Positions 13,018 through 31,246 of a stretch of DNA of 41,016 bases are shown here, piece by piece. The stretch lies in assembly GCA_024277055.1 (NCBI GenBank), contig JAJRVZ010000056.1, positions 1-41,016 of the forward strand, read 5' to 3'. The stretch is from Calditrichota bacterium. Lineage in GTDB: Bacteria; Calditrichota; Calditrichia; JAJRVZ01. The stretch's first letter is position 1. Each line of letters starts with the position of its first letter. Made by a program: the position numbers and the translations under genes. The notes beneath the pieces were generated by a model. That model saw nothing but the letters and a program-made list of their open reading frames with translations. It had not been told where the DNA came from and searched no databases.

Positions 13018-13083
13018 CCTTCACCCTGTATTGGTTTTTGAATCATTTCGTGAAAAAGTTACATCTTTTTCCTTAACACCGTA

Positions 13084-15494: not shown

Positions 15495-15526
15495 ACGCTA
15501 TCCTTTCAATAAAAATGTCATAGAAT

Positions 15527-15763
15527 TTATACAATGCCCATGCTCTTAAGTTGTTGCAAAAAATCACTCATGTCCCGTTGCAATTCCTCCGGAACCTCAT
15601 CGAAAGTTTCAGTTAATTGCTTTTCAATTTCAGTTTCGGTTAATCCTTCTTTCAGTTTATTCAATATGAACAATCCGGTTGAGTTCACCGTAAAGCTCTC
15701 TCCCGTTGTCGGGTCAAAAACAAAACCTTCATCGTTAACCGCCAGGTGCTGGATTCTGCTCAT
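15527..15763 (-). CDS. PqqD-like protein (RiPP recognition element)
   Basis: A 78-residue cytoplasmic protein with the PqqD fold: an N-terminal three-strand hairpin (HLAVNDEGFVFDPTTGESFTVN), the turn STGLFILNKLKEG and three helices (TETEIEKQLTETFD; EELQRDMSDFLQQLKSMGIV). PqqD-like domains bind the leader part of a precursor peptide and hand it to a modifying enzyme. No separate precursor gene is visible; the leader-like N-terminus of the nearby decarboxylase is one candidate ligand. The ATG at 15763 is preferred over the one at 15769 because AAAGGA then lies 7 bases upstream. It is the first gene of a seven-gene block. Confidence 0.82.
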   Translation of the reverse strand: MSRIQHLAVNDEGFVFDPTTGESFTVNSTGLFILNKLKEGLTETEIEKQLTETFDEVPEELQRDMSDFLQQLKSMGIV

Positions 15764-15875
15764 TTGCATCCTTTCTTTTTGTTCGCATTTTTTTCATAAT
15801 CTATTAATTTACACGAATATCATCAAAATTCAATTCCCGTGATGCATCCGTTTAAAGAGATCACGGATTAACAGC

Positions 15876-16064
15876 TCAATGATTATACTTCGTCGCCTTC
15901 TGTTCGACAGGTGCGCAGTGGCTGCAACCCTCTGATTCACTTCCATGACACCCTCCGGCAGCACCGCGGATTGATTTCACAAAACTTCTCAAACTCCAGT
16001 AGCCGATCATGATTGCCGTTAAAACCGCGAGTGTGGTTAAAATGGTTTCCAGGAAAACCTGCAT
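15876..16064 (-). CDS. Small Cys-rich single-span membrane protein (FeoB-associated-protein-like)
   Basis: A 62-residue protein with one membrane helix (residues about 5-26), a short basic stretch (RSFVKSIRG) and a Gly/Cys/His-rich tail, AAGGCHGSESEGCSHCAP, that could bind a metal through three Cys and two His. It resembles the FeoB-associated Cys-rich membrane protein family in layout, but there is no feoB nearby. It starts about 20 bp after a terminator-like hairpin that follows the DUF5676-like gene, so it depends on read-through or on its own promoter. A role in metal handling is an inference from the tail and the copper genes upstream. Confidence 0.68.
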   Translation of the reverse strand: MQVFLETILTTLAVLTAIMIGYWSLRSFVKSIRGAAGGCHGSESEGCSHCAPVEQKATKYNH

Positions 16065-16084
16065 TTTTTTGCCCTTTCATATTT

Positions 16085-16118
16085 AAAAAGGCCTGCCTCC
16101 CTTTTCGGAAAGCAGACC
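16085..16118 (-). terminator. Terminator between the DUF5676-like gene and the Cys-rich protein gene
   Basis: The minus strand forms a roughly 12-bp stem with three G-U pairs (GGTCTGCTTTCC with GGGAGGCAGGCC) around a 5-base loop, followed by TTTTTAAAT. It ends the short operon that begins at 16571. Confidence 0.68.
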
Positions 16119-16137
16119 CTGGGGGAGAGGAGATATG

Positions 16138-16395
16138 TTATGCGCCTTCTTTTCCTTTAAAAAAATTGTAAATCGGTACGTATACCAATCCTATGTACAA
16201 ACCCCATATCATGCTTTCAATTAATCCCAGGAAGAAACTTCCCCAGGATAACCAGGTAAAGCCGGGCAGAACATTCTGAAGAAATCCGCTCATATGAAAT
16301 TCGTTCGGTGTAAGCAAACCAAACAATACACATACCACAAAACTGATTGCCAGGAAAAGACTTAACTAAACGGCGACGGTTTTTATATTAAGCAT
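16138..16395 (-). pseudogene. DUF5676-like small membrane protein gene interrupted by an in-frame TAG at codon 10
   Basis: From an ATG at 16395 with AGGAG at good spacing, the frame reads MLNIKTVAV, then TAG (16366-16368), then continues open as LSLFLAISFVVCVLFGLL to the stop at 16138. The whole 85-codon frame has the shape of DUF5676-type two-helix membrane proteins found near copper genes: an N-terminal MLNxK start, a first helix, the loop LPGFTWLSWGSFFLGLIES and a second helix ending VYVPIYNFFKG. Only one base needs changing (for example TCG or TTG to TAG). Restart at a GTG at 16338 is possible but has no ribosome-binding site and removes half of the first helix. It may be a recent nonsense mutation, a sequence error or a suppressed stop. 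Confidence 0.6.
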
Positions 16396-16606: not shown

Positions 16607-16622
16607 ATCAATTACTATGCCA
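16607..16622 (-). promoter_or_regulatory. Sigma-54-like -24/-12 promoter upstream of the His-rich mini-protein
   Basis: The minus strand reads TGGCAT, 5 bases, TTGAT, which matches the sigma-54 consensus TGGCAC-N5-TTGCW except for the last C of the -24 box and A instead of C in the -12 box. The predicted start of transcription is about 25 bases before the ATG at 16571. The same element occurs below the other two palindrome pairs. Confidence 0.55.
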
Positions 16623-16707
16623 GGATATATCAATTATGATAATCTATTGTTTATTAAGGTGTTAACGGATTTCCACAGCAATATTTTTGATGAACCAAAA
16701 ACCGTTG

Positions 16708-16745
16708 TGTAGAATATTCTGCAAAGATATGTAGAATATTCTGCA
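16708..16745. promoter_or_regulatory. Paired palindromic operator sites (pair 1)
   Basis: Two copies of TGTAGAATATTCTGCA lie at 16708-16723 and 16730-16745, with centres exactly 22 bp apart, in the gap between the NDH-2 gene and the small-protein operon. They lie about 96 and 118 bp upstream of the GG of the sigma-54-like promoter, the usual place for activator sites of NtrC-type regulators. The 246-bp gap otherwise holds no gene. Confidence 0.75.
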
Positions 16746-16817
16746 AATCACCATGGATAATTGAAGCTAGCGCAGTCTTTCTTATTCACCGTTTTTTACC
16801 GAAGGATTCCGGTATGC

Positions 16818-18095
16818 TCAGCCGGAAGTGATTATTCTCGTACCGCGCTTATGCGTAAAATAATTCCACGCCCATTGAATCATTACGATCATTTTATTGT
16901 CAAACTCGACGAGGTACATGATATGAACAAAAATCCAAACAAGCCATGCAAAGAAACCGCTTACTCTCAAAACGCCGAAATCGGCGATGGCAGCATTTCG
17001 TCCGATTACGGCCAGCATTCCTTTATTGCGATATCTGAATACCGGTATTTTTTTTCCTTTTATGCGTGCTTTAATTATTCGTGCCAGAAAACGCCCTTCC
17101 TGCATCGCGACCGGGGCAATACCGGGCAGCGGCTGACCGGTCTGATGTGAATAGTTTGCCAGATCCCCGGCAACAAAGATATTTGAACAGGTGGCTACCG
17201 AAAAATCCCTGTTAACCATTACTCTTCCCGCCCTGTCCAGGTCGGCGCCGGTTTTTGCTGATAGTATGTCCGCTATTTTAGTTCCTTTTATTCCGGCCGT
17301 CCAGATAATATTTTTTGAATGTTTCGTAATTTTCTCACCGTTCCGTGAAATGGTAATATCGCTTTCACTTACATCCGTGACCATGGAATTGGTCATGACC
17401 GTTACTCCCAGGCGATTGAGAGATTTCCCGGCTTTCAGTGCCAGTGTATCCGGATAGGCCGACAAAATACGAGGTGCCGCTTCCAGCAGAATGATTTCAA
17501 TCTCTTCGGGATCAATGCGGTGATATTCCCTCCGTAATGTTTTGAATGCCAGTTCTGCTATGGCACCGGATAATTCAACACCCGTTGGACCGCCACCGAT
17601 TACAACAAAAGTAAGCCATGCCTTTCGCACGGCCTGATTCTTTTCAATTTCGGCTGCTTCAAAGGCATAAAGAATCTTATTCCGGATTGCCAGTGCATCT
17701 TCAATTGTTTTCAGACCGGGTGCATTTTCCTGCCAGGATTCATTTCCGAAATAATTTTTGTCGACCCCGGTGGCAACGATCAGATAATCATACCCGACCA
17801 GACCCTTTTTCAGTGCGATCTCCTGCTTATCCGGATCAATATCTGTTACTTCATCATTAATGATATCGATTTCATTATTACCGGAAAATACGTATCGTAA
17901 CGGGGAGGCGATATCACCCGGCGACAATTCTCCGGTTGCCACCTGGTACAGCAACGGTTGAAAAAGGTGAAAATTACGTTTATCTATCAGCGTAATCTTT
18001 ACGCCGCTTTTTCGCAGCGACTTTACAGCATATAAGCCACAGAATCCACCACCGATCACCACAACGTGATTTTCACCTTTAATTGGCTCCGACAT
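16818..18095 (-). CDS. ndh: Type II NADH:quinone oxidoreductase (NDH-2)
   Basis: A 425-residue flavoprotein with two dinucleotide-binding motifs: VVVIGGGFCGLYAVKSLR for FAD near residue 11 and FVVIGGGPTGVELSGAIAE for NADH near residue 163. It also has the NDH-2 landmarks FQPLLYQVATGELSPGDIASPLR and VAGDLANYSH...GIAPVAMQEGR (quinone/FAD contacts). The C-terminus carries a hydrophobic, amphipathic region (GFFAWLVWIFVHIMYLVEFDNK) for membrane attachment. It passes electrons from NADH to quinone without pumping protons. It is the last gene of the unit headed by copA; a respiratory enzyme that does not pump fits a stressed membrane, but that link is inferred. No strong terminator was seen after it. 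Confidence 0.93.
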   Translation of the reverse strand: MSEPIKGENHVVVIGGGFCGLYAVKSLRKSGVKITLIDKRNFHLFQPLLYQVATGELSPGDIASPLRYVFSGNNEIDIINDEVTDIDPDKQEIALKKGLVGYDYLIVATGVDKNYFGNESWQENAPGLKTIEDALAIRNKILYAFEAAEIEKNQAVRKAWLTFVVIGGGPTGVELSGAIAELAFKTLRREYHRIDPEEIEIILLEAAPRILSAYPDTLALKAGKSLNRLGVTVMTNSMVTDVSESDITISRNGEKITKHSKNIIWTAGIKGTKIADILSAKTGADLDRAGRVMVNRDFSVATCSNIFVAGDLANYSHQTGQPLPGIAPVAMQEGRFLARIIKARIKGKKIPVFRYRNKGMLAVIGRNAAIADFGVLRVSGFFAWLVWIFVHIMYLVEFDNKMIVMIQWAWNYFTHKRGTRIITSG

Positions 18096-18195
18096 AGGAC
18101 CAGATATCCTCTTTTCAGTTTTGGTATTCGGCTTCTCAAATCATTACAGCATCAGGATTAACTGATGATCAAACCGAATAATTTCACTCCGGATT

Positions 18196-18354
18196 CTATT
18201 TTTTATCTTCGTTCTGTAAATATTTTTGTGGATTCCGGTCAAATTCCTTTTTGCAGCCGGGAGAACAAAAATAATATGTTTCCCCTTTATATTCGCTTAC
18301 TCCCGCAGGTGACTTTTTGTCGACCTGCATTCCGCATACCCTATCTTTTGCCAT
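18196..18354 (-). CDS. YHS domain mini-protein (52 aa)
   Basis: The frame starts at the ATG at 18354 with GGAGG upstream and encodes MAKDRVCGMQVDKKSP, then YKGETYYFCSPGCKKEFDRNPQKYL. This is a complete YHS domain: a small zinc-finger-like fold in which the VCGM and FCSPGC cysteines can bind a metal ion. The same domain forms the N-terminus of the CopA ATPase upstream, so this is likely a free-standing metal carrier or sensor for the same ions (Cu or Ag). It follows a second YHS protein in the same operon by about 20 bp. Confidence 0.82.
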   Translation of the reverse strand: MAKDRVCGMQVDKKSPAGVSEYKGETYYFCSPGCKKEFDRNPQKYLQNEDKK

Positions 18355-18375
18355 GATAAAACCTCCTGATTACAG

Positions 18376-18549
18376 TTAGTTATGTTTGACTTTGTTAATA
18401 TACTTTTGTGAATCCTTTTCGAATTCCGCCTGACAGCGCGGACAGCAAAGGTAGTATTCCTCCTGATCCAGGTGAATTACAACATAGGCTTTGTTCTTGT
18501 TCATTTTTCTGCCGCACACCGGGTCCCTGGTCACATTATTTTTTCCCAT
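18376..18549 (-). CDS. YHS/TRASH-like domain mini-protein (57 aa)
   Basis: A 57-residue protein, MGKNNVTRDPVCGRKMNKNK, then DQEEYYLCCPRCQAEFEKDSQKYI. The DPVCGRKM and CCPRC motifs place it in the YHS family. A GTG at 18561 is also in frame, but the ATG at 18549 is preferred because GAGG lies just upstream; this start overlaps the stop of the membrane spermidine-synthase-like gene closely. It differs from the 52-residue neighbour by an extra Cys (CC) in the second motif, so the two are diverged paralogues. A cytoplasmic copper-handling role is inferred from the operon. Confidence 0.8.
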   Translation of the reverse strand: MGKNNVTRDPVCGRKMNKNKAYVVIHLDQEEYYLCCPRCQAEFEKDSQKYINKVKHN

Positions 18550-18557
18550 GACAAACC

Positions 18558-20951
18558 TCACTTGTTTAGATTAAGATGAAACGCTTTTGAGTGAATAGAT
18601 ATTTTGAAGAAGCCAAGCGAAATCAGAATATAAAAGACGGCTGCCGTCCACAATGCAAAGGTAAATCCAAATAGAATACCGATAATCATGGCAAGAACAG
18701 AGCCGGTAATTGCTGCGATTCCGTTGATACCCCAGCACAGGTAAATATACTCTGATAAATTCATGGCCGAGAGTTTATTCATCGCCGCCGGAAACGGTAT
18801 CCCCAGCAAAATCCCCAAAGGCAAAATTGTTACCATCGATGTTATGAATATACTATCGTTTGCCTGGTAAACCGCAGGGATCAGTTTTGAAAGCGCAACC
18901 GATACCACTGCAATTGCCAGCGACACCAGGGAAATTGTCTTAAATTTATTTTCTTTTATAAAATTACTCAGGAAACTGCCTGTTCCGGTTCCAAGCAGTA
19001 AAGAAAACAAGAGGACACTAATCGCTTCCAGGGGATTATCCGTGAATATATTCAGTTTTTGCAGGGAAGCGATTTCCAGTAACATGAATCCCGCACCGCT
19101 GGAAAAAAATATAAGGTAAAACCACTTTAATTCCGGATGAAGCGCAACGGATTTAAACAGCGAGAACGAATACTTTTCCGGATTACCCTTAATCGCCGTC
19201 ATATACAAAAGCAGGAAGAATACCAGAACGATAATCAGAAAAAAAACTCCGAAAGGCGCCGGTAAACCCTTTTGAAATTTGTAAAAAAACGGTTTATCAT
19301 CATGAACGGCGCCGATGTCGAAAGAGGCCGCCTGTCTGACTTCCTCCGGAGTAACCTGACCATTGTATAGAGCGACCAGAACCTGATCAAACATCCGCCA
19401 GGGCAAATCCAGCCCTAAAAGACTTGCCGGACGAATTTCCGGTGCCTGCCGGTAAGGAAGAAAGAAATTTCCGTTCACAAAACCCAGTTTATGCATCAGC
19501 TGGTGTCTGGCCTGCGTTTCTTCCACCCGAAAGGGTGTTTTTTTTATCACCAGGGTTGGCATCATGCCCGATGCAATGGTATAAATATGATTCATTGATA
19601 GTGAAGGATCAATGCCTTTTTCATTGAAGTACTCAATTACCATCATAATAAGACGATAGATTTCAGCATCATTGTGCGCAACGATGACAATTCTGCCTTC
19701 TGAAGTCAGATGGTCAACATATTCCGAAATCGCCTCGACGGTAAACAGGAAGTTTTCAGTCAAACTGTAACCTTCAATGCTTCTGCTGCTTTTGGTAATC
19801 GGAATTGAAGCCATAATAAGGTCATATTTCAAATTGGATTTTCTTAAATAATTTCGGGCATCGGCAACAACTACATTTACATTCGGGTAATCGCGATATA
19901 ATCCGCCGTTATATTCAGCGTAATCATTCATGATTTGAACAATTTGCGGATTTACCTCCACGGCAGTTATGTGTTTTACCCCTCCGAGCAGTGCAACCAC
20001 CACATCTCTTCCACCACCCGGTCCGATAATAAATGCGGAGTCCTTTTCGGATTCCGTCAGAAAGTAGAAAGGAAAAAATTCACCGAAATGATACCTCAGA
20101 TGAACGGATTTCAGAGAATCGGCCTGTATTTCCCGCCAATTATACATTGCCGATCCGGCTGCTCCGTCAACGAACATGCTCAAGTATCCGCTGCCCTGTT
20201 TTCCCCTCACCAAATCTGTGCGCCCGAAGGCACTCCATCGGCTGTCTATTATTTTTCCCTTTTCGTAAGGGTTGTTGATGAAGCGCAGCAAGTCCTTATT
20301 AGCGTTCTCCGCGACCTGTAACACAGGTTTTTCCATAAATATATTTACACCGATTGCCGCGATCAGGACCAGTACAATGCTGAATCCCGATGATATTTTC
20401 CAGTCTCTTGCGGGAACGGAAAACAGAAGGGACGCCAAAGCCAGAATAATAGAAGCAAGGAAGGCCACATTCACCACACTGAACTGATTCAGTATCGGAA
20501 TTGTTACCAATGTAGCAATTGCCGCACCGAAAATATCAAAGGCATAAACCATGCTGCTTTTATGCGGGAATTTTTGAAAAACACCAGCCATTACCAGGCC
20601 GAAGAAGAAGAAGGGTACCGCAGCTGCGGCAATATAAATCCATTCGCTGAATGTCCCGCCGAAACCAAGGGCCTTAACCGGGTCGAAGATCAACACCAGT
20701 ATCAAAATCAAAGAAGTGAAAGATGTCATGGCAACATTTACCGGCAAATCATTCATCGGAAATATCTGATACCATTTCTTCAGCGCCATTCCGCCAAGTC
20801 CGATGCTCATCACCGAAAGGGACAGAATCAAATAGACAAAGTGATAGTCAAATTTAACCGAGAACAGCCTTGTCAATACCAGTTCGAACATCATCAAACT
20901 AAAACTGGTTAGAAATATTGCCGAATAATTATACTTGCCCTGCCCTGACAT
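18558..20951 (-). CDS. Membrane-embedded spermidine-synthase-like protein
   Basis: A 797-residue protein with an N-terminal set of about six membrane helices (residues 8-205), a central Rossmann methyltransferase/aminopropyltransferase domain with SAM-type motif I (FIIGPGGGRDVVVALLGGVKHITAVEVNP, near 300-330) and DLIMASIPITKSSRSIEGYSLTENFLFT further on, and a C-terminal half with about seven helices. It belongs to the 'fused' SpeE-like membrane proteins, whose reaction is not established; the acidic residues that bind polyamine in true SpeE are not clearly kept. In many genomes such genes sit next to respiratory or metal genes. It lies between the cupredoxin and YHS genes. The ATG at 20951 is favoured by GGAG six bases upstream; the ATG at 20954 is an alternative. 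Confidence 0.78.
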   Translation of the reverse strand: MSGQGKYNYSAIFLTSFSLMMFELVLTRLFSVKFDYHFVYLILSLSVMSIGLGGMALKKWYQIFPMNDLPVNVAMTSFTSLILILVLIFDPVKALGFGGTFSEWIYIAAAAVPFFFFGLVMAGVFQKFPHKSSMVYAFDIFGAAIATLVTIPILNQFSVVNVAFLASIILALASLLFSVPARDWKISSGFSIVLVLIAAIGVNIFMEKPVLQVAENANKDLLRFINNPYEKGKIIDSRWSAFGRTDLVRGKQGSGYLSMFVDGAAGSAMYNWREIQADSLKSVHLRYHFGEFFPFYFLTESEKDSAFIIGPGGGRDVVVALLGGVKHITAVEVNPQIVQIMNDYAEYNGGLYRDYPNVNVVVADARNYLRKSNLKYDLIMASIPITKSSRSIEGYSLTENFLFTVEAISEYVDHLTSEGRIVIVAHNDAEIYRLIMMVIEYFNEKGIDPSLSMNHIYTIASGMMPTLVIKKTPFRVEETQARHQLMHKLGFVNGNFFLPYRQAPEIRPASLLGLDLPWRMFDQVLVALYNGQVTPEEVRQAASFDIGAVHDDKPFFYKFQKGLPAPFGVFFLIIVLVFFLLLYMTAIKGNPEKYSFSLFKSVALHPELKWFYLIFFSSGAGFMLLEIASLQKLNIFTDNPLEAISVLLFSLLLGTGTGSFLSNFIKENKFKTISLVSLAIAVVSVALSKLIPAVYQANDSIFITSMVTILPLGILLGIPFPAAMNKLSAMNLSEYIYLCWGINGIAAITGSVLAMIIGILFGFTFALWTAAVFYILISLGFFKISIHSKAFHLNLNK

Positions 20952-20986
20952 CATTCACTCCATGGTTGACCGACGTTTGGGATTCA

Positions 20987-21364
20987 TCACTGGACAATCA
21001 GTTTGCCGCGTAACATTCCCATGGCACATTGAAACTCATAGGTACCGGGTTTATCCGGAGTAAACTCCACCGGAACATTTTTAAACGGCGTCAATGTGGC
21101 CTGTTTTCCAAAATCGGGAAACAGAACCTGCTCCGAACAGGCGGCCGTTTCTTCACGAAGAAAATTCAAGCGCACCGGCCGGCCGGCATCCACAAGTATT
21201 ACATCCGGCGAATAACCGCCTTTTACTTTGATCAGAGCTTCCTGTACACCACCTTCCACCGTGGCCAGGCGGGTCACCTTTTTCTCGGAGAACCAGAAAT
21301 ACCATCCTACGATTACGGCGAGTGTAATCCCACTCAGCGTAACAATTATTTGATCTGTTGCCAT
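20987..21364 (-). CDS. Membrane-anchored cupredoxin-domain protein (CupA-like)
   Basis: A 125-residue protein with one N-terminal membrane helix (residues 7-25) and a cupredoxin-fold domain (residues about 40-125): GYSPDVILVDAGRPVRLNFLREETAACSEQVLFPDFG, PVEFTPDKPGTYEFQCAMGMLRGKLIV. There is no His in the domain; the likely copper ligands are the Cys of AACSE and the Cys/Met of QCAMGM, which suits Cu(I) better than an electron-transfer type 1 site. A similar arrangement is known for the membrane cupredoxin CupA, which hands Cu(I) to CopA. It starts 16 bp after copA, with AGGAG upstream of its ATG. Copper delivery to CopA is inferred. Confidence 0.85.
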   Translation of the reverse strand: MATDQIIVTLSGITLAVIVGWYFWFSEKKVTRLATVEGGVQEALIKVKGGYSPDVILVDAGRPVRLNFLREETAACSEQVLFPDFGKQATLTPFKNVPVEFTPDKPGTYEFQCAMGMLRGKLIVQ

Positions 21365-21379
21365 GATTTTGTCTCCTCG

Positions 21380-24031
21380 TTATTTATTGAGTTTTAAACG
21401 ACGTAAACGATTGGCGTTCGTTACAACCGTAACCGAGCTGAATGCCATCGCTGCTCCTGCAAGCATCGGTGAAAGCAATACACCGAAAAACGGGTAAAGT
21501 ACGCCGGCTGCAATGGGCAGCCCCAAACCGTTGTAAAAGAATGCGCCGAACAGGTTCTGGCGAATGTTCCGCATGGTTGCGCGGGATATCTGGATTGCCG
21601 TAACCACGCCGTTCAGACTTCCCTTGATCAGGGTAATATCAGAAGCTTCAATCGCCACGTCTGTGCCGGATCCTATCGCAAATCCGATGTCCGCCTGGGC
21701 CAGGGCCGGAGCATCATTGATGCCATCCCCAACCATCGCCACGCGTTTTCCTTCCAATTGCAGCTTTTGTACGTTGAAGGCTTTATCTTCAGGCAGAACT
21801 TCCGCAAGCACACGATCAACATTCACCTCGCGGGCGATGGCATCTGCCGTACGTTTATTATCACCGGTGAGCATGACGACTTCCAGCCCCAGTTTCTTTA
21901 AGCGGGCAATCGCTTCCTTCGAGTCCTCTTTCACCGTGTCGGCTACAGCAATAATTCCGGCCACTTTTTTATCAATTGCAACAAACATGGGGGTTTTGCC
22001 GTTGTCCGCCAGCTTAGAACCCTTCTGAATCAGTTCGCCAGGATCAAGATTTTGCTGCAGCATGAATTTTATATTGCCCAGCAGAATTCTGTGTCCGTCA
22101 ACGTCTGCTTCCACACCATGACCGGGAACAGCATTAAAATCCTGAGTTTCCATTAACTTGAGTTTCTTGTTCTTTGCTTCTTCAAGGATCGCCTCACCCA
22201 GCGGATGCTCCGAACCCCTTTCGACACTTGCGGCAAAGGTGAGGATTGTTCTAACATCCAGGCCGTCGGCCGTCACTACATCGGTTACTACCGGCTTTCC
22301 CGCCGTAATCGTTCCGGTTTTGTCGAGAACCACCACATCCAGTTTCTGCGCACTTTCCAGCGCTTCCCCGCTGCGGATCAATATTCCGTTCTCAGCCCCT
22401 TTTCCAACGCCAACCATCAAACTGATCGGTGTTGCCAGACCAAGTGCACAGGGACAGGCTATAATCAGCACCGTTACAAAGACAATTAAGGAATAAATAA
22501 GATTAGGTTGTGGACCGAAATCGTACCAGGTTACAAACGAAAGTATGGCTATAATGATCACCGCCGGTACAAAATATCCTGCAACTTTGTCTACGATTCG
22601 TTGAATAGGCGCTTTCGAACTCTGCGCCTGCTGTACCATTTTAATGATCTGGGCCAGTGCCGTATCTTTTCCGACTTTCGTTGCCTTGAATTTAAAGGAA
22701 CCGGTTTTGTTGATCGTTGCACCGATAACTTCATCATTTTCGTGCTTTTCGATCGGGATCGGTTCACCGGTTATCATCGATTCGTCAACGGAAGAACTAC
22801 CCTCAACGATCACCCCGTCAACCGGTATCTTTTCGCCGGGCCGAACGACAATGACATCATCCAGAACGACTTCTTCAACCGGCAAATCCATTTCTTCTCC
22901 ATTGCGAACCACCCGTGCGGTTTTCGGTTGCAGGCCGATCAGTTTTTTAATTGCCTCGGAACTTTTACCCTTGGCCCTGATTTCCAGCGCCATTCCCAAT
23001 ACCACCAACGCCACGACCACCGAAATGACATCAAAGAATTGATCAGCCAGTTCCTGACTTGGAAATATCTGCGGAAAAAACGCCGCCGTGCTGGAATAAA
23101 GCCAAGCGGCACTAATACCGGTTGCGATTAAAGTATGCATATTTGCGGAATGGTTCTTGAAAGCAGCCCACGCGCCCGTAAAAAACTGAGAACCGGACCA
23201 GAACATTACCGGCAGAGAAATAACAGACATGGCTACCCATATCCATTGCAGTGTTTCGCTTCCCCGCTGGAATTGCCGTGGCAGGCCCCATAACTCCGGA
23301 TAACTGAAAAACATTACCGGAAGTGAAATAATACCGGCAAATATGAATTTTCGCAATAAAGTTTTATATTCCCGTTCGCGTGCCAGCTGGTTTTCATCCT
23401 GCTGATCCTTTCCGTCATCGGTGCCGGGCGATACCGAATCGGTAACTTCATATCCCAGGTCGGTGATGACTTTCTTGATCTGATCAATCTGCACCGCGGA
23501 TGGAATATAAGTGACATGCGCGCTTTCACCGGCCAGGTCTACACTGGCCGAAAGAATGCCGGAACTGGTAAACAATTCCGATTCTATTTCGGTTACGCAT
23601 GAAGCACAGTGCATTCCGTGAATACCCAGGTCCAGTTCAGCACGTCCGACTTTATATCCACTCTGCTTTACGGCTTCCACCACATGCTCTACAGCCAGAA
23701 GGTTCGGATCATAATCAAGGTATAATTTTTCCGAACCGTAATTAACATTTGCCGCTACCACACCGTCAAGCAGATTGACGTTTTTTTCTATGGTAGTGGC
23801 GCAACTCGCGCAATCCATTCCCAGTATTGGGATTTCCACCCTTTCAATCCCGCTTTTATTTACCCGGTAAGTTGCGGATTGGCTTCGTGGTTTGATATAT
23901 TTATCAGGCTCAGCATCAAATTTTTCTTTGCATGTTGCCGAGCAAAACTCGTATCGGCTCCCTCCGAATTCTGTTATAAAGGTTCCTGTGGATTCCAGCT
24001 CCATACCACAAACCTTGTCAACAACTTTCAT
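21380..24031 (-). CDS. copA: Copper-translocating P-type ATPase (YHS plus two HMA domains)
   Basis: An 883-residue P1B-type ATPase. An N-terminal YHS domain ([21 protein letters not shown]; residues 3-47) is followed by two HMA domains with GMDCASC (Cys74, Cys77) and GMHCASC (Cys142, Cys145). The core has the CPC motif ([12 protein letters not shown]), [11 protein letters not shown] (phosphorylated Asp), SEHPLGEAI (HP motif), [14 protein letters not shown] and [20 protein letters not shown], plus the final helices with [16 protein letters not shown]. It exports Cu(I) from the cytoplasm at the cost of ATP. The ATG at 24031 with GGAGG upstream is chosen; 53 residues of upstream open frame include promoter DNA. 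It heads an operon with the cupredoxin, two YHS proteins and NDH-2. Confidence 0.95.
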
Positions 24032-24067
24032 TTTATCCTCCAAAAGTAGATATTTGAGGGAGTATAG

Positions 24068-24083
24068 TTCACAAATCATGCCA
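24068..24083 (-). promoter_or_regulatory. Sigma-54-like promoter upstream of copA
   Basis: The minus strand reads TGGCAT, GATTT, GTGAA, preceded by TT, with the GG-to-GA spacing of a sigma-54 promoter. Transcription would begin about 27 bases before the copA ATG, nearly the same leader length as at the 16607 promoter. The -12 box is weaker than at the other two sites. Confidence 0.5.
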
Positions 24084-24145
24084 AAACCATAACTATCTGT
24101 TTTTATAAACTTTATAAACACAACCGGCAATTGATTCAAATAAAA

Positions 24146-24183
24146 TGAAGAATATTCCACAGGCAACTGCAGAATATTCTTCA
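24146..24183. promoter_or_regulatory. Paired palindromic operator sites (pair 2)
   Basis: TGAAGAATATTCCACA (24146-24161) and TGCAGAATATTCTTCA (24168-24183) share the core AGAATATTC with the other two pairs and again have centres 22 bp apart. They lie between the Rieske gene and copA, about 72 and 94 bp upstream of the sigma-54-like -24 box. These are the most diverged copies. Confidence 0.72.
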
Positions 24184-24226
24184 ACCGCAAACAAGGCAGG
24201 GTTTTGAGGTGGGAAATTCAGATGGG

Positions 24227-24670
24227 TCAGGTTATTCTTGATACAAATATTTTTTCTTCCTTTACATGCACTTCATACGGGTCCAGCGGCCGTGGCGGCG
24301 GACCGGAAATATTCCTTCCCTGCAAATCATAATGTCCGTTATGGCAGGCGCACCATATGTGCTCAAAATCTTCCCGGTACTGAACGATACACGCCAGGTG
24401 CGTGCAGATCGCCGTGTAGGCCTTGAAATCTCCTTCGGGAGTTCTGAGCAGAATGACCGGTTTCGACCCGTATTTAATAATTTTGCCGCTGTTGGGTTTC
24501 ATTTCGCTGATTGTACCCGCCAGTACGCTGGAAGGATTTGATTCCACACCTTTCGGAGGTTGCAAATATTTCCACACCGGGTAAAAAACAGCTGTAGCCA
24601 GCCCCCCGAAAGTGGTCCCCAGCATCCAATTCAGGAATCCTCTTCTTCCTTTATTTTCAGGATTATTCAT
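24227..24670 (-). CDS. Rieske [2Fe-2S] protein with twin-arginine-like signal
   Basis: A 147-residue protein of the QcrA type. Its N-terminus carries a twin-arginine-like motif (KGRRGFLNWM, residues 8-16) and a hydrophobic anchor (to about 33). The Rieske boxes are intact: C89-T-H91 with C94, and C107-A-C109-H110, which supply two Cys and two His ligands plus the pair of Cys that make the stabilising disulfide, as in high-potential bc1-type Rieske centres. Normally such a protein works with cytochrome b in quinol oxidation, but no cytochrome b gene is in the window; a different quinol-oxidising partner or a distant gene is needed. It is the last gene of the ccmF-headed operon, with AGAAGGAG upstream of the ATG. 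Confidence 0.9.
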   Translation of the reverse strand: MNNPENKGRRGFLNWMLGTTFGGLATAVFYPVWKYLQPPKGVESNPSSVLAGTISEMKPNSGKIIKYGSKPVILLRTPEGDFKAYTAICTHLACIVQYREDFEHIWCACHNGHYDLQGRNISGPPPRPLDPYEVHVKEEKIFVSRIT

Positions 24671-24696
24671 TTTTGACTCCTTCTTTCTTTGTCACA

Positions 24697-25371
24697 CTAA
24701 TTCAATTGATCGATTCTACCATCTTTCATGCTGATGGTTCTGGATGCATACTTCAGGTTTTCCTGGTTATGGGTAACCATGATGATCGTCTGGCCTTCCC
24801 GGTGCAAATCAGCGAACAATTGCATAATTCCGGCACTGGTAACACTATCCAGATTACCGGTCGGTTCATCCGCCAGAATAATCGGCGGTTCGTTTACGAG
24901 GGCCCTGGCAATCGCCACTCGCTCCTGCTCTCCACCGCTGAGCTCATCCGGCAATCGATCGGCTTTGTCCGCCATTCCGACCTTTTCAAGTATTTGCATC
25001 GCGCGTGAATTACGTTTTGCCGCGCTCAGATCGGAGATGGCAAACGGGATCAGAACATTCTCGAGCACCGTCAGATAGGGAATCAGATAAAATGCCTGAA
25101 AAACAAATCCGATATATTCCTTCCGAAAATCCGCCCGCTGTTCCGGGTTCAACGCGTAAATATCCAGATCGTCTACCCGTATATTTCCCCGCGTCGGGTG
25201 ATTTAATCCGCCAATCATCGTAAGCAGAGTGCTTTTTCCCGACCCCGAATGTCCAAGGACGGCGATAAATTCACCAAAAGTTATTTCAGTACTGATTCCG
25301 CTCACGGCTTTAACATTGGTACCGTTTTTACCGTAATGTTTTTCAATATTTTCTATTTCAATTAAAGCCAT
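24697..25371 (-). CDS. ABC transporter ATP-binding protein (LolD/MacB type)
   Basis: A 224-residue ATPase of the LolD/FtsE/MacB group. It has the Walker A GHSGSGKSTLL (residues about 39-49), the Q-loop region GFVFQAFYLIPYLTVLENVLIPF, the signature LSGGEQERVAIARALV, the Walker B IILADEPTGNLD and the switch His in IMVTHN. It powers the FtsX-like permease encoded just upstream (12 bp gap). This class moves lipoproteins or small molecules out of the inner membrane, or transmits mechanical force, rather than importing solutes. The substrate is unknown; the DUF2318 protein before the permease points to a metal-linked task. Confidence 0.93.
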   Translation of the reverse strand: MALIEIENIEKHYGKNGTNVKAVSGISTEITFGEFIAVLGHSGSGKSTLLTMIGGLNHPTRGNIRVDDLDIYALNPEQRADFRKEYIGFVFQAFYLIPYLTVLENVLIPFAISDLSAAKRNSRAMQILEKVGMADKADRLPDELSGGEQERVAIARALVNEPPIILADEPTGNLDSVTSAGIMQLFADLHREGQTIIMVTHNQENLKYASRTISMKDGRIDQLN

Positions 25372-25383
25372 TGTTCACATCCT

Positions 25384-26541
25384 TTATAATGTTCTGATCG
25401 CTTCCGTAGGGTCCAGGTTCGCTGCTTTTATCGCCGGATACAGACTGGCAGCACCCGATAATACTATTGACAGTAAAAGAGATGACAACAGCATATTGAT
25501 ATCAACGGTTATTGAAGTGCTGTTTACGGCCAGGTAACCCGCAATGTTTTTCGCCAGAACAAGGCCCGAAACGTATCCCAGTATCCCCGCAAACAGGCTG
25601 ATGATAACAGCCTCGGTAATGATGATCTGCAGAATATTTTTTTTCCGGAATCCGATCGACCGGAAGATACCGATCTCCTTCTTTCTCTCATTCACCGAGG
25701 CACTGAACGTCGTGAATACGATCAATCCCCCGACCAGCAGCATGACCAGTGATATTCCGTAGCTGAAATTCTCAAATTGACTGATCGCCGCCATTTTGGA
25801 CTGTATCGTTTCCCTGATGGCCATCACTTTGGCCGTCGGCATCTGATTTCCGATCTGGGCTACAATCTCTTCAATAGGGCAATCGTAACACAGAGCTGAA
25901 ATCTCAACGAGTGAAAGCTGTTCTTTCCTGTCGAACAGATTTTGTACGATTTTCAAATCGGCAAATATAATTTCATCATCCTGTGACCCGGTTTCCGCCA
26001 ATACCCCGACAACCTTCATTCTCATATTTTTAATATTCAGTTCATCGCCGGAAATTATGTTCAGCTTTTTTGCCACTTCATTGCCAACAACAAGCTCTGA
26101 ATCGAGCCGCGGCTTCTTTCCCGAAAGCTTCCACCATTTTTTTAATTTCAACTCCGAGTCGAAATCAATTCCCGCAATCAGAACATTCCTTTCTTTTATT
26201 CTGGTAGTTTCAAGCAATTTCGGTGCTATCGCGGCAATGTTCTTGTAGTTTTTAATATGAGTGATCTTTTTCAATTGCGCTTCCGTGAGTGGTTTCGTTT
26301 CTACCGATACCCCCGACAACGAAATCCCTCCATAGGATAATGAAAGTTCATCCCTTTGCGGTACGACCAGAATGTTGGCCCCGAATTCATCCAGCTTTGT
26401 GGCAATATCCTTATTCATCGCGTCTGAAATCTGGATCAGAATAATGACAGTGCTGATTGCAATCGTCAACCCGATCAAAAGAAACAACAGCCGGCTTTTT
26501 CTTCTCTTTATGCTGCTTAGAGATATTTGATATAGTTTCAT
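25384..26541 (-). CDS. ABC transporter permease (FtsX/MacB family)
   Basis: A 385-residue permease with the four-helix FtsX/MacB layout: helix 1 (residues about 17-38, LLFLLIGLTIAISTVIILIQIS), a periplasmic MacB-type domain (to about 250), and three C-terminal helices (SYGISLVMLLVGGLIVFTTF, IIITEAVIISLFAGILGYVSGLVLA and LLSSLLLSIVLSGAASLYPAIKAANLDPTEAIR). The coupling sequence RKKEIGIFRSIGFRKKNILQ contacts the ATPase. It contains a lone Cys pair (ALCYDCPIEE) in the periplasmic domain, an unusual feature for the family that could bind a metal or form a disulfide. It pairs with the ATPase gene immediately downstream. Confidence 0.9.
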   Translation of the reverse strand: MKLYQISLSSIKRRKSRLLFLLIGLTIAISTVIILIQISDAMNKDIATKLDEFGANILVVPQRDELSLSYGGISLSGVSVETKPLTEAQLKKITHIKNYKNIAAIAPKLLETTRIKERNVLIAGIDFDSELKLKKWWKLSGKKPRLDSELVVGNEVAKKLNIISGDELNIKNMRMKVVGVLAETGSQDDEIIFADLKIVQNLFDRKEQLSLVEISALCYDCPIEEIVAQIGNQMPTAKVMAIRETIQSKMAAISQFENFSYGISLVMLLVGGLIVFTTFSASVNERKKEIGIFRSIGFRKKNILQIIITEAVIISLFAGILGYVSGLVLAKNIAGYLAVNSTSITVDINMLLSSLLLSIVLSGAASLYPAIKAANLDPTEAIRTL

Positions 26542-26551
26542 AATCTTCCCG

Positions 26552-27229
26552 CTATACCCTCGGTTTCCAGTTTATCACAGGGGCTATTTCTATCTGGATT
26601 TCATTTCCCACGACAATGCTGGGAATGGCATCCGGAGGATACCCCTGGCAGGCTCCGCTGAGGCCGTCAAGTGAGTTGAGTTCCCATGTTGTTCCACAGG
26701 AGTTACAAACCAGTTGCTCCCCTTTTATGTGAAATCGGGTTGAATTGCATGGCTCGCACATGCTTATCGCGGTGATCACTTTACCCTCTCCTGACACATA
26801 AGCCAGCAATGGAATTACCCGTCCATTGTTATTAAATTCGAACGCTACAAATTTCTTTTGCAAGACTACATCAAGGGGTAATATTATCTTATTTTCGCGG
26901 ACCCGGGTTTCAATCGTTTTCATTTGTCTCGGAACAGGCGGGTACGTTACCGATTCAGCCACCAACGGTTGTTCATCAATAATGGGATTACTCAGGGCTG
27001 GAAGATTTTCAAAAAATATCAGTATCCCGAGCGCCAGCGGTACAATGATCACTGCGATGAAAAGACTCACATTACTCTTTGATTTGTTGCTGCCGAGAAC
27101 TCTTTCCCGTTTGCCGGATAATACACTCTGTCCGACCGCCGCGGATTGCTCAACCGGCGTCCCGCATTCTACACAAAACTTTCCGGACTCCTCTATCTGC
27201 GTGCCACATTGCGTACAGTACTTTGCCAT
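26552..27229 (-). CDS. DUF2318 protein with N-terminal zinc ribbon and membrane anchor
   Basis: A 225-residue protein. Residues 3-24 form a zinc ribbon (YCTQCGTQIEESGKFCVECG), residues 53-73 a membrane helix, and residues about 105-225 a DUF2318 domain (FVAFEFNNNGRVIPLLAYVS, then MCEPCNS with Cys158/Cys161, LVCNSCGTTWEL with Cys175/Cys178, and SGACQGYPPDAIPSIV). DUF2318 domains are predicted Fe-S or metal-binding extracytoplasmic modules found beside iron transporters (FtrD-like). The neighbours are an FtsX-type permease and LolD-type ATPase, a three-gene set also seen in other bacteria as far as I recall. The function is likely metal-related but not established. Confidence 0.83.
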   Translation of the reverse strand: MAKYCTQCGTQIEESGKFCVECGTPVEQSAAVGQSVLSGKRERVLGSNKSKSNVSLFIAVIIVPLALGILIFFENLPALSNPIIDEQPLVAESVTYPPVPRQMKTIETRVRENKIILPLDVVLQKKFVAFEFNNNGRVIPLLAYVSGEGKVITAISMCEPCNSTRFHIKGEQLVCNSCGTTWELNSLDGLSGACQGYPPDAIPSIVVGNEIQIEIAPVINWKPRV

Positions 27230-27239
27230 GATGTCTCTC

Positions 27240-28130
27240 CTATCTTATCCTGTGCCCGTACTTCTTATCAACCATATCTACAATTTCATCCCTGCTGAAT
27301 TTTGCAAGTGCTATCTGATTGGAAATAAATCCTTTTACTTCCTGTGCTCCCCGGGGATGCCCGCAGTTACATTCCGCCAGTTCATCAATCGAACATTGGC
27401 CGCAGGGACATGAAAATCTTGTTTCGATATAATTTTGATCAGCGAGTTTCGCCACGGCGAGCGTTCCGGCAACTTCGTCCGGTATCGCTTTAATCGGTTT
27501 ATTTTTTACCAGCGATTGTAAATCTGCAGGACTGCTGTTTTTTGCGGCGTATTCCGGTTTCATCCACCCGTATTTAACCGAAACCGCCTGTATTACCTGT
27601 TCCGCCGTCTGCCCGGCACGCAGTGCATCCCGTATAAAATTTCTTTCCTGCTGGGCCGTAGGGCAGGTACAGGTTTCCAACGGTTCGGCATTACAGTTGC
27701 CGCAGGAGCAGCTGAACCTGGAGGCGATTGCTTTCACATTTCCCTCCAGCTGTAAATTGCCGCTCACATTTTCGATACCGGCCTGAAAGTTCTGACTGCG
27801 GACGACCGTCTCGGTTCCGCTGTCTTTCACAAACAGATAGCCGATAACTACTACAATTACAGCGGCCGCAATCCAGATTTTATTTTTATCCTGCCCGGTC
27901 TTCACCGGCGCCTTTTTTCTGTTTACCTGTTTTTTGCTTTGAACCGCTTTTTTCTTCTGTCCCATGGCACTGCCGCATTCACTGCAAAACCTGGCGTCGT
28001 TTTTATTTTCAGCGCCGCAGTTTTTGCATACTTTTGTACTTCCCCAGTCGGAATTACCGCACTCCGAACAGAATTTTGCAGTGGTTTTATTTTTCGCTCC
28101 GCATTGATTACAGGTTTTATAAGAATCCAT
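27240..28130 (-). CDS. Double zinc-ribbon, single-span protein with two CcmH-like domains
   Basis: A 296-residue protein. Two zinc ribbons at the N-terminus (TCNQCGAKNKTTAKFCSECG, residues 7-25; VCKNCGAENKNDARFCSECG, 35-53) precede a Lys-rich linker, a membrane helix (about 84-101) and two repeats of a CcmH/CycL-like module: FSCSCGNCNAEPLETCTCP...RDALRAGQTAEQVIQAVSVKYGW (138-189) and FSCPCGQCSIDELAECNCG...FISNQIALAKFSRDEIVDMVDKKYG (239-292). CcmH reduces the haem-binding Cys pair of apocytochrome c through its own CxxC. Here each repeat has a CxCxxC instead of LRCxxCQ. It directly follows ccmF with 14 bp between, which supports a cytochrome c assembly role. The ATG at 28130 with GGGAG is chosen over the TTG at 28136. 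Confidence 0.8.
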   Translation of the reverse strand: MDSYKTCNQCGAKNKTTAKFCSECGNSDWGSTKVCKNCGAENKNDARFCSECGSAMGQKKKAVQSKKQVNRKKAPVKTGQDKNKIWIAAAVIVVVIGYLFVKDSGTETVVRSQNFQAGIENVSGNLQLEGNVKAIASRFSCSCGNCNAEPLETCTCPTAQQERNFIRDALRAGQTAEQVIQAVSVKYGWMKPEYAAKNSSPADLQSLVKNKPIKAIPDEVAGTLAVAKLADQNYIETRFSCPCGQCSIDELAECNCGHPRGAQEVKGFISNQIALAKFSRDEIVDMVDKKYGHRIR

Positions 28131-28144
28131 TGCCAACTCCCAGG

Positions 28145-30376
28145 TTAATTACTTAATTCCAAAAAACGATTGCGCATGGCCCACAGCGTTCCTATGCTCA
28201 ACAAGATACTGCCGAGCCAGAGTAACCCGATAAACGGTTTTATACTTACTTCAACCAGCAGCTGTGGTGGGGCAGGTACCGGGCTGTCCAGCTCCAGTCC
28301 GGTTACCTCCAGTAGCGCCTTTCCATTGTCCGCATCAATTTTCTTTACATGAAATTTCAAATTCCTTTGCGAATCATTCAGTTCTGCCGGTACGTCTTCC
28401 TGGCCATTTTTCGTTAATAACAGTGCTGGTGTTATCTGGTATTTTTTATCGCCGTTCATAACATCCAGTTTCACACCAACCGTAAACAATTCACTCTGAT
28501 GATCCTTTGACATGGCAAATTCAGCAAAGGTTATTGAATATTCGGAAAGCTCATACTTTTCCCCTTTGGACAAAACAAACTCATTCCTAGGCTGAGATTC
28601 CGTCTGCCTGATTTCCAAAGGTGAAACATACAGGTCCTTCGTTAATCCGCTGAGAATATCCGGTTCGCGCATCATTCCCCTGTTGACCTTGTTGAAATAC
28701 AACCGTGGTTCAACCGTTTTAACCGTATTATTTTCGTTAACAGACAAAACCACCTTATTCTTGCCATCCGCCGAAGGAACGACCCCGTCAAAAGTGAACT
28801 TATAGCCGAGAATCGATTTTTCGCTGCCAAGCGATAATATGGCCCTTTCTTCCCGGTCAAGTCCGCTGGATAAAACTACGCCGGCGAAAAGTAAAGCCAG
28901 CCCTAGATGCGCCAATGGTGCGACCAGTTTATCCCGGCTTGTTCTCCACCTGTCAACCAGTAAAATAATATTAACGGAAATTGCCAGAACACTGGCGAAC
29001 AGGAAAATCAATAATAGAAACTGCTGAATTCCATATGCAAACCCCGCCAGCGAGGCAACCAATGCGACAACCATTGCCGGTAAAAGGGTCTTCCATGCCC
29101 CGTGGCTCAATCCGTCTTTCCACCTGAAAAACGGAGCGAAAGCTATAATCAAAGCCATAATAATAGCAACCGGCAGGTTTACTTTATCGTAAAATGAAAT
29201 GTCTACCTGGGCAGGCTTGCCGAATAATTCCGTAATCAGCGGAGAAGATGTTCCGAGAATAGTCAGAAATCCCGAACCAAGAAATAGAAATATGCCGAAA
29301 ACCATAAGACTTTGACGATTTATCGTATCGAGGCGAAGGCTGCCGCCCTGCACGCTTTTAAATCTTGATGCAAGCAGTCCGAATCCGCCTGCCAGGACCA
29401 GCAGGATGAAAAGCACCAGAATTCCGTTGATACCAAGATCCTGAAATGAATGAACGGAAAAGTCGGCCAACACACCACTGCGGGTCAGAAAAGTGGCATA
29501 CATGACAAGAGCAAATGAAATTACGCCGAGCACCATATTTATTTTCGGCAGGGCGTTAAAGCGTCGGGTAATAATCAAACCGTGAAAAAAGGCCAGAGCA
29601 CTCAACCAGGCTATCAGCGAGGAATTTTCAACAGGGTCCCATCCCCAGTAGCCTCCCCAGCCGAGCACACCGTATGCCCAGTAACCGCCAATGATAATTC
29701 CGGCACCGAGTGTCAGGGATGAAAACAAGGCCCAGGGAAATACTCTTTGAACCCAGGACGAGTAGTCCCTTTGATGAAGGGCTGCCAGAATTATCACGAA
29801 TGGAAGAGTAACCGCGGCATAACCTATAAACAAAATCGGCGGATGAATTACCATCCAGGGATTTTGCAGTAATGGATTCAGGCCGGCACCTTCTGGAGGA
29901 ACCTGCGGAAGCAGTTTAAACGGACTGGCGATGAACAGTATTATAAAAAAGAAAACCTGAACCAGATTCAAATAGATCATTGATCGGGCTTCATAGGTTC
30001 CCGCGCTTTTTTGCATGAAATATCCCATCCAGGTTAAACTGAGCAACCAGAATAAAAAGGAACCTTCCTGCCCCGCCCAGAATACGGAAATAAGATAGCC
30101 GAGCGGCAAATCACTGGAAGAGTACCGGTAAATATAATCTACCTGAAATTTGTGTGACAGAATCAGGAACAGTAAATACACCGATGCCAGACTGATAGCC
30201 GCAACACTTGCATAAAAGCTGATTCTTGCCTTTTGTAAATTGACGGTGATCAGAGCTCCGTGTTCACGACGCTGTGATCTTGATATATTGCCATTTCCAG
30301 CGGCAAGATTGTAAAAATATATGGAGATCAGAGAGGCGATTAAGCCCGCAGCGATTAAAAAATATCCCAGTTGCAT
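28145..30376 (-). CDS. ccmF: Cytochrome c maturation haem lyase subunit CcmF
   Basis: A 743-residue polytopic membrane protein of the haem-handling CcmF/CcsA superfamily. It keeps the tryptophan-rich haem-binding WWD motif (GWGGYWGWDPVENSSLIAWL, near residue 245), flanking His residues in helices (NPWMVIHPPILFIGYA; SALAFFHGLIITRRF) and the late periplasmic domain (residues 530-700) that precedes the last helix. CcmF joins haem to CxxCH motifs of apocytochromes in the periplasm together with CcmH. No ccmA-E genes are in the window. It lies 24 bp after a lipoprotein gene, under the third sigma-54-like promoter, and is followed by the CcmH-like double-domain gene. Confidence 0.94.
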   Translation of the reverse strand: MQLGYFLIAAGLIASLISIYFYNLAAGNGNISRSQRREHGALITVNLQKARISFYASVAAISLASVYLLFLILSHKFQVDYIYRYSSSDLPLGYLISVFWAGQEGSFLFWLLSLTWMGYFMQKSAGTYEARSMIYLNLVQVFFFIILFIASPFKLLPQVPPEGAGLNPLLQNPWMVIHPPILFIGYAAVTLPFVIILAALHQRDYSSWVQRVFPWALFSSLTLGAGIIIGGYWAYGVLGWGGYWGWDPVENSSLIAWLSALAFFHGLIITRRFNALPKINMVLGVISFALVMYATFLTRSGVLADFSVHSFQDLGINGILVLFILLVLAGGFGLLASRFKSVQGGSLRLDTINRQSLMVFGIFLFLGSGFLTILGTSSPLITELFGKPAQVDISFYDKVNLPVAIIMALIIAFAPFFRWKDGLSHGAWKTLLPAMVVALVASLAGFAYGIQQFLLLIFLFASVLAISVNIILLVDRWRTSRDKLVAPLAHLGLALLFAGVVLSSGLDREERAILSLGSEKSILGYKFTFDGVVPSADGKNKVVLSVNENNTVKTVEPRLYFNKVNRGMMREPDILSGLTKDLYVSPLEIRQTESQPRNEFVLSKGEKYELSEYSITFAEFAMSKDHQSELFTVGVKLDVMNGDKKYQITPALLLTKNGQEDVPAELNDSQRNLKFHVKKIDADNGKALLEVTGLELDSPVPAPPQLLVEVSIKPFIGLLWLGSILLSIGTLWAMRNRFLELSN

Positions 30377-30400
30377 TTTCCATCCTCGCTTTAATTGTGT

Positions 30401-30955
30401 TTACCAGATTGAATGCCCGCCATACATCATTATTACCATCACCGCGGTCATGGCAATACCGCCCATGTATAAATAATTCGAATTATTGTAAAAGCTCTGT
30501 TGCTGCTCCTCTCCTGCAACGTCTTGTACGGCATCGACCAGCGAATACCTTTCATTTCCGTTAACTTTTTCCACAAGAAAGTATATTGTTCCTTTCGCAT
30601 CCGGCTTTATATTCACCGGATAGCTGCCGTCCGAATTGAATTGTACGGATTTGATGCGGGCGGAATCCGGCCCGGTGTTTTCTATTGTGTAGGCGGTTAA
30701 TTGAATTACGGTGCTACCTGTCGTATCAGCGTTCATAGTTTCAATCGACAGATTGACCGTTGATGAAATTCCTTCATGAAGAGGCGGTATTATCAATTCA
30801 ATTCGCAAATCATCACTTACATAGCTGCGCTCAATGATTTTTCCGGATTTTTGCATGGTATGCATCTTCCCGTTGCCCATATGAGGAACCATCACGCCAT
30901 GCATACAACCGGCAAAAAAGACAACTGCGCCAAGTAAAAATATCTTCAACATCAT
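30401..30955 (-). CDS. Lipoprotein with C-terminal membrane segment, first gene of the ccmF operon
   Basis: A 184-residue protein with a lipobox (VVFFAGC, lipidated Cys17), a His/Met-rich start of the mature part (MHGVMVPHMGNGKMHTM, possibly metal-binding), a beta-rich region that resembles an Ig-like fold (residues 45-140) and a C-terminal hydrophobic helix (YLYMGGIAMTAVMVIMMYGG). I do not recognise a family. As the first gene after the third sigma-54-like promoter it may be the copper-sensing or copper-buffering member of the operon; the Met/His cluster is the only evidence. The start ATG at 30955 has a second ATG directly after it. Confidence 0.72.
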   Translation of the reverse strand: MMLKIFLLGAVVFFAGCMHGVMVPHMGNGKMHTMQKSGKIIERSYVSDDLRIELIIPPLHEGISSTVNLSIETMNADTTGSTVIQLTAYTIENTGPDSARIKSVQFNSDGSYPVNIKPDAKGTIYFLVEKVNGNERYSLVDAVQDVAGEEQQQSFYNNSNYLYMGGIAMTAVMVIMMYGGHSIW

Positions 30956-31116
30956 ACCTGTACCTTATTATTATGAATAAATTTTTGAACGGTGCAATAT
31001 TCCCGACTAGACTCCGCATTATTGTTCATTCAATAATTCCGGATTTTCAATTGGATGCTCCATTATAATTCCCCATCAGGACCGTAACTCCGCTTTCTTT
31101 ATTTTGTGCAATTATT

Positions 31117-31132
31117 ATCAAAAACAGTGCCA
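31117..31132 (-). promoter_or_regulatory. Sigma-54-like promoter upstream of the ccmF operon
   Basis: The minus strand reads TGGCAC, TGTTT, TTGAT: a perfect -24 box (TTGGCAC) and a -12 box with A for C. It lies about 86 and 108 bp from the palindrome centres and about 160 bp before the ATG at 30955. The resulting leader of about 150 bases is longer than at the other two promoters. The gap 30956-31386 holds otherwise only the palindrome pair and a terminator. Confidence 0.58.
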
Positions 31133-31208
31133 ACAAATTCTAACCGCCTTATCTGCCTGATTTTACATGTGTTACAAAAACATCCGTTTTGGGTACTTCC
31201 ACAACAAT

Positions 31209-31246
31209 TATAGAATATTCTACACCTCCCTGTAGAATATTCTACA
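31209..31246. promoter_or_regulatory. Paired palindromic operator sites (pair 3)
   Basis: TATAGAATATTCTACA (31209-31224) and TGTAGAATATTCTACA (31231-31246) are the most symmetric copies; the second is a perfect 16-bp palindrome. The centres are 22 bp apart, as in the other two pairs. They lie between the DUF302 gene terminator and the lipoprotein-ccmF operon. Confidence 0.78.

Follow-up and report, generated by a model that had tools for sequence, protein, structure and literature searches.

The window (the whole stretch of DNA analysed, 41,016 nucleotides) carries a DUF5676 operon, a copA operon, an operon running from a lipoprotein gene to a Rieske gene, and a cus-type operon (Table 1). The likely start of CopA is an ATG near 24030 located behind GGAGG. 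The FtsX/ABC part of the operon that runs from lipoprotein to Rieske resembles accessory genes of P19/Ftr iron systems, without the permease. The preliminary description had correctly placed three operons below three palindrome pairs; the -24/-12 promoters and the cusCBA operon at 31.4-41 kb had been missed.

Table 1. Genes, operons and predicted regulatory elements of the window.
Feature	Position	Strand	Basis and remarks
DUF5676 operon	15876..16338	-	two small membrane proteins
62-aa small membrane protein	15876-16064	-	
DUF5676 small membrane protein	16138-16338	-	PF18926
Predicted sigma-54 promoter TGGCATAGTAATTGAT	16607..16622	-	85 bp downstream of 16708 pair; shuffle p=0.015
Paired palindrome, predicted enhancer/UAS of DUF5676 operon	16708..16745		sequence; PWM 25.2 + 25.2
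copA operon	16818..24190	-	Pfam
NDH-2	16818-18095	-	Pfam
YHS	18376-18561	-	Pfam
SpeE-like membrane protein	18558-20954	-	798 aa; weak spermine-synthase-like domain; inside copA operon
Cupredoxin	20987-21364	-	Pfam
CopA P1B-1-type ATPase, YHS and two HMA domains	longest ORF 21380-24190	-	Pfam; CPC, YNGLGLP, MAFSS signatures
Predicted sigma-54 promoter TGGCATGATTTGTGAA	24068..24083	-	62 bp downstream of 24146 pair; shuffle p=0.035
Paired palindrome, predicted enhancer/UAS of copA operon	24146..24183		sequence; PWM 21.5 + 23.1
Operon lipoprotein to Rieske	24227..30955	-	Pfam; same operon behind pair in other genomes
Rieske	24227-24670	-	Pfam
ABC ATPase	24697-25371	-	Pfam
FtsX/MacB permease	25384-26541	-	Pfam
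FtrD/DUF2318	26552-27229	-	Pfam
CcmH-like with zinc ribbon	27240-28136	-	Pfam
CcmF	28145-30376	-	Pfam
Lipoprotein	30401-30955	-	no Pfam family found
Predicted sigma-54 promoter TGGCACTGTTTTTGAT	31117..31132	-	76 bp downstream of 31209 pair; shuffle p=0.020
Paired palindrome, predicted enhancer/UAS of lipoprotein-CcmF-CcmH-FtrD-FtsX-ABC-Rieske operon	31209..31246		sequence; PWM 22.4 + 27.3
cus-type operon: DUF302, DUF2231, P-II-like, CusA, CusB, TolC (cut by contig end)	31387..41015	-	

Six TGYAGAATATTCTRCA-like palindrome copies were read directly in the window, arranged as three pairs with 22 bp from start to start. The core AGAATATTC was expected 0.22 times on average per shuffled window (300 shuffles), and a 22-bp pair of AGAATATTC occurred in none of the 300; number, position and spacing of the copies as first described are thus borne out. 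The consensus given with them fits less well at 24146, where one copy departs at two positions (TGAAGAATATTCCACA). The window's own genome (G000; 3,962,393 bases, 3.96 Mb, 386 contigs) was scanned by pattern searches. All palindrome copies with 0-1 mismatch were located inside the window, and the genome-wide search for the pair, proposed beforehand, yielded no 22-bp pairs beyond the three of the window at up to 3 mismatches. The statement that no copy was noticed elsewhere therefore stands for close copies and for 22-bp pairs, but not for weaker single sites, as a lone degenerate copy (2 mismatches; L110) overlaps the start of a histidine kinase gene on contig C133 (9889-9904). Lone sites at the start of this kinase gene were found in G000, G024, G031, G037 and G039, which is consistent with feedback by the regulator (autoregulation).

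The pair was present in 22 of 41 Calditrichota genomes (22-bp spacing in 18, 23-bp spacing in 8), and a reversed control pattern gave zero matches in the same 41. A position matrix was built from the Calditrichota pairs of this phylum search; later matrix scores on these pairs are not independent because the matrix was trained on them, and neither are sites in closely related Calditrichota genomes independent of each other. With the matrix, pair spacing peaked at 22 bp (31 pairs), with 6 pairs at 23 bp and 3 at 21 bp. An exact spacing of 22 bp, as originally claimed, thus holds for all three window pairs, whereas relatives mostly have 22 bp and also 23 or 21 bp. The strict pair form was recovered from 49 stretches in a scan of GTDB genomes, mostly of Desulfobacterota (Desulfobulbaceae, Desulfuromonas-like) and Calditrichota, with some Krumholzibacteriota. 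Matches in Aciduliprofundum (L135), Ignavibacteriota (L165) and Lachnospiraceae (L174), and probably those in L156 and L158 (Sporosarcina), were set aside as probable chance matches because they scored low with the motif or had no related genes around them. That the units are near-perfect palindromes would also fit a repeat dispersed in the genome or a hairpin in RNA, free of any regulatory role, but with only three pairs in G000, at fixed spacing and before related operons, and with conservation between phyla that already largely refutes it, this reading is practically negligible and was dropped.

The commonest targets of the pair were cus operons; others were P1B ATPases, DUF5676 or DUF302 proteins and the CcmF-CcmH-FtrD-FtsX-ABC operon. 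In relatives, the pair lies directly upstream of TolC-CusB-CusA. The CcmF form of the CcmF-CcmH-FtrD-FtsX-ABC operon recurs with the pair in G018, G021 and G022, the FtsX/ABC part is found under it in Desulfobacterota (L150, L161, L175), and DUF5676 relatives also stand behind it in G010, G029, G031 and G034. The same pairings as in the window thus recur in other genomes, in line with the earlier proposal of one regulator, predicted to bind as a pair of dimers, that is common to copper export and the CcmF-type operon. The cus-type operon of the window is a predicted further member of the regulon, its enhancer and promoter lying off the contig: the contig ends inside tolC (39801-41016), so that the predicted cus enhancer is missing from the assembly. 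The CusA of the window scored 1301 bits to E. coli CusA versus 591 to ZneA, and all three methionine motifs (LLYMP, PLSMIETT and RIDMLSTG) were kept in the alignment. A methionine triad is characteristic of CusA-type pumps for Cu(I)/Ag(I) efflux, and the protein was assigned to the CusA type, not to the ZneA/CzcA type.

Two further observations were made on neighbouring genes. Next to CusA lies the gene of a P-II-like protein (PF00543; 34514-34855), which accompanies cus operons under the enhancer in many Calditrichota genomes. At 10948-15769, on the same strand after the DUF5676 genes, genes for a small PqqD-like protein (by eye), an ATP-grasp-like enzyme, a PLP-decarboxylase-like protein and a 689-aa membrane/peptidase-like protein were noted; in a further Calditrichota genome (L067), the ATP-grasp and 689-aa genes have relatives next to the cus enhancer.

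Between each pair of the window and the gene it faces, a sigma-54-like box was found, the pairs being located 62-85 bp upstream of the -24/-12 box; all three thus have the layout of a sigma-54 enhancer-promoter unit. The matrix used for sigma-54 boxes follows the published consensus TGGCACGRNNNTTGCW, which is quoted in PMC3707914. Taking the best box on either side, 31 of 34 Calditrichota pairs had a box at shuffle p<=0.05; the combined p=9e-30 for the 34 pairs overstates the case because related genomes share ancestry. Among genes preceded by a pair, 12 of 30 had a box scoring >=12 upstream, against 10 of 253 control genes. Across all phyla, a box scoring >=11 accompanied 68 of 87 non-redundant pairs at a distance of 61-155 bp (median 94). 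The -12 element is often TTGA instead of TTGC, and some pairs (L123, L146, L155 and L164) had no clear box. RpoN is encoded in G000 (PF04552 match at C378, 203 bits).

These distances bear on the reading of the pairs as operators of a sigma-70 repressor of the CopY/BlaI, CsoR, ArsR or Rrf2 type placed over the promoter. Repressors of the CopY/BlaI type are also known to have a palindromic core and paired sites, but a median of 94 bp upstream of -24/-12 boxes is a typical activator position, and the sites are repeatedly accompanied by a gene for a sigma-54 activator. Such operators are highly improbable, and a repressor of the CopY, CsoR or Fur type was dropped in view of the boxes and the neighbouring regulator. 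The CsoR operator, quoted in PMC10141476 as GTAGCCCACCCC-N4-GGGGTGGGATAC, looks unlike the window palindrome when the two are compared by appearance only, without alignment.

The candidate activator of G000 is encoded at C133:7266-8609 and was the best match by 262 bits (767 versus 505 bits for the next paralogue). Together with its partner kinase it is located on contig C133, separate from the contig of the window. Response_reg (PF00072), Sigma54_activat (PF00158) and HTH_8 (PF02954) domains were all above the Pfam cut-off, and the GAFTGA sigma-54 contact loop was read as G(A/S)FTGA in seven of seven aligned regulators and in the G000 copy; receiver, AAA+ domain, Fis-type HTH and GAFTGA loop place the protein in the NtrC family of response regulators. 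The recognition helix PRHVLLYR, or PRHVL(L/I)Y, is conserved across Calditrichota and Desulfobacterota, and none of the other paralogues read contains it. Regulators beside the pair in Desulfobacterota and Krumholzibacteriota have the same helix at 43-50% overall identity, which ties the helix to the conserved palindrome. In G001-G003, which belong to one genus, the genes of kinase and regulator lie apart, but PRHVLxY is nonetheless found in the best regulator match.

The pair adjoins the regulator and kinase genes in G006, G009, G010, G018-G021, G024, G027, G031, G040 and many Desulfobacterota loci, and is located 1-2 kb from them in G005 and G013. Overall, kinase or regulator was found <=2 kb from 30 of 87 pairs, the regulator end often being 2-190 bp from the pair; these adjoining pairs are mostly in front of tolC-cusB-cusA. 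As G000 encodes about 29 sigma-54 activators and the C133 regulator does not stand beside the window pairs, the pair might be read by another of them. This is very unlikely, since it is the C133-type regulator that repeatedly adjoins the pair in distant genomes, co-occurs with it and has the distinctive conserved recognition helix. The regulator, called unknown in the preliminary description, can thus be named with good confidence as a predicted NtrC-type response regulator partnered by a histidine kinase.

The kinase of G000 is encoded at C133:8769-9905. In a profile search of the 41 Calditrichota genomes, a full-length relative (>300 bits) was found in 26, and all others remained at <=206 bits and matched the generic kinase core only. 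Pair and kinase were both present in 21 genomes and both absent from 14, with the pair only in one and the kinase only in five (Fisher p=4e-6, ancestry ignored). The pair-only genome is G004 (89% complete), and the five with a kinase had no pair at the 3-mismatch criterion. Pfam domains of the kinase are HisKA and HATPase only, with neither PAS nor HAMP. The N-terminus is a predicted membrane helix bundle, and there is no room for a periplasmic domain; in the AlphaFold model (overall pTM 0.47) the first ~110 residues were predicted as membrane-type helices with good local confidence. Three histidines in this membrane-embedded domain (H28, H39 and H76, L144 numbering) are invariant in 23 kinases of several phyla and may bind metal. 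Tentatively, and with some doubt on our side, the kinase might differ from CusS, ZraS and CorS in sensing metal directly via the three histidines, and drive a sigma-54 regulon, spread over several phyla, in which copper export is coupled to an assembly or repair operon of the CcmF/FtrD/ABC kind.

Taken together, the pair is very probably the tandem enhancer of a phosphorylated NtrC-family two-component activator that serves sigma-54 promoters of a CopA/CusCBA/CcmF-FtrD-ABC regulon. Two regulator dimers would bind the palindromes next to each other, at a distance of two helical turns. The kinase probably responds to an excess of Cu(I)/Ag(I) or to a linked envelope signal and, once activated, would phosphorylate the regulator, which would then oligomerise on the tandem sites. 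Its AAA+ domain, via the GAFTGA loop, would open a waiting sigma-54 RNA polymerase at the -24/-12 promoter, usually ~60-135 bp downstream. Acting as an activator, it may jointly switch on CopA, CusCBA, the cupredoxin, YHS and DUF5676 proteins and the CcmF-CcmH-FtrD-ABC operon.

Copper (or silver) is the likeliest signal because of the Cu(I) P1B-1 signatures of CopA, the type of CusA and the prevalence of cus operons among the targets. The same machinery could instead answer to silver, zinc, redox/quinone state or periplasmic envelope stress, as its sensor sits in the membrane and contains no known ligand domain, and the regulon includes the redox functions NDH-2, CcmF and FtrD. A non-copper signal is unlikely, although it retains some weight, given that the most constant targets are a Cu(I)-type CusA and CopA. 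Our preferred reading is hence a real, well-conserved pair of enhancer sites belonging to a sigma-54 two-component regulon that most likely serves copper, and the switch most likely recurs across Calditrichota and several other bacterial phyla.

An anonymous repeat is thereby turned into a defined candidate switch with motif, promoter class, regulator and sensor, found in anaerobes of several phyla, cultured as well as uncultured. It offers a direct route to predicting copper regulons in such genomes, brings the CcmF/FtrD/ABC operon into copper stress biology, and adds a new type of candidate metal sensor.

No paper describing the palindrome was found in the open-access literature searched; GAATATTC gave no match there with sigma54 and only plant papers with response regulator. 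Motif, regulon and membrane-embedded three-histidine sensor were thus not found described, and the class of mechanism is known from ZraSR and Myxococcus CorSR. The sigma-54 regulome of Desulfovibrio vulgaris comprises a systematic activator set with binding motifs upstream of -24/-12 promoters (PMC4641369); 'copper', 'efflux' and AATATT are all absent from the main text of that paper. Myxococcus xanthus CorSR is a copper-responsive two-component system with a sigma-54 activator and a cupredoxin and CopA operon with predicted sigma-54 promoters, and CorS combines a signal peptide and a single transmembrane segment with a periplasmic sensor and HAMP; a tandem palindrome and a CusCBA or CcmF/FtrD operon are not mentioned in the available excerpts (PMC3707914). 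As far as these excerpts go, the present system shares with CorSR the sigma-54 two-component logic and a cupredoxin and CopA operon as target, but its kinase differs from the CorS architecture in having a short membrane-embedded sensor without HAMP. Like E. coli CusRS, it has a CusCBA operon for copper/silver efflux under two-component control. In CusRS, however, the regulator CusR is of the OmpR type and works with sigma-70, and the sensor of CusS is periplasmic, whereas the regulator here is of the NtrC type and the promoters are sigma-54-like. Enterobacterial ZraSR (HydHG) employs an NtrC-type regulator with sigma-54 on metal or envelope-stress targets, and the present regulator is likewise an NtrC-type response regulator with sigma-54. 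It scored below the equivalog cut-offs of ZraR (404 versus 760 bits), NtrC (NR(I); 454 versus 558.6) and AtoC (487 versus 714), the kinase matched ZraS in the kinase core only (189 versus 479), and the targets differ from those of ZraSR. In its logic the system follows known sigma-54 two-component systems such as ZraSR and CorSR, but its proteins fall short of the ZraSR, NtrC and AtoC cut-offs and the sensor is unlike CorS.
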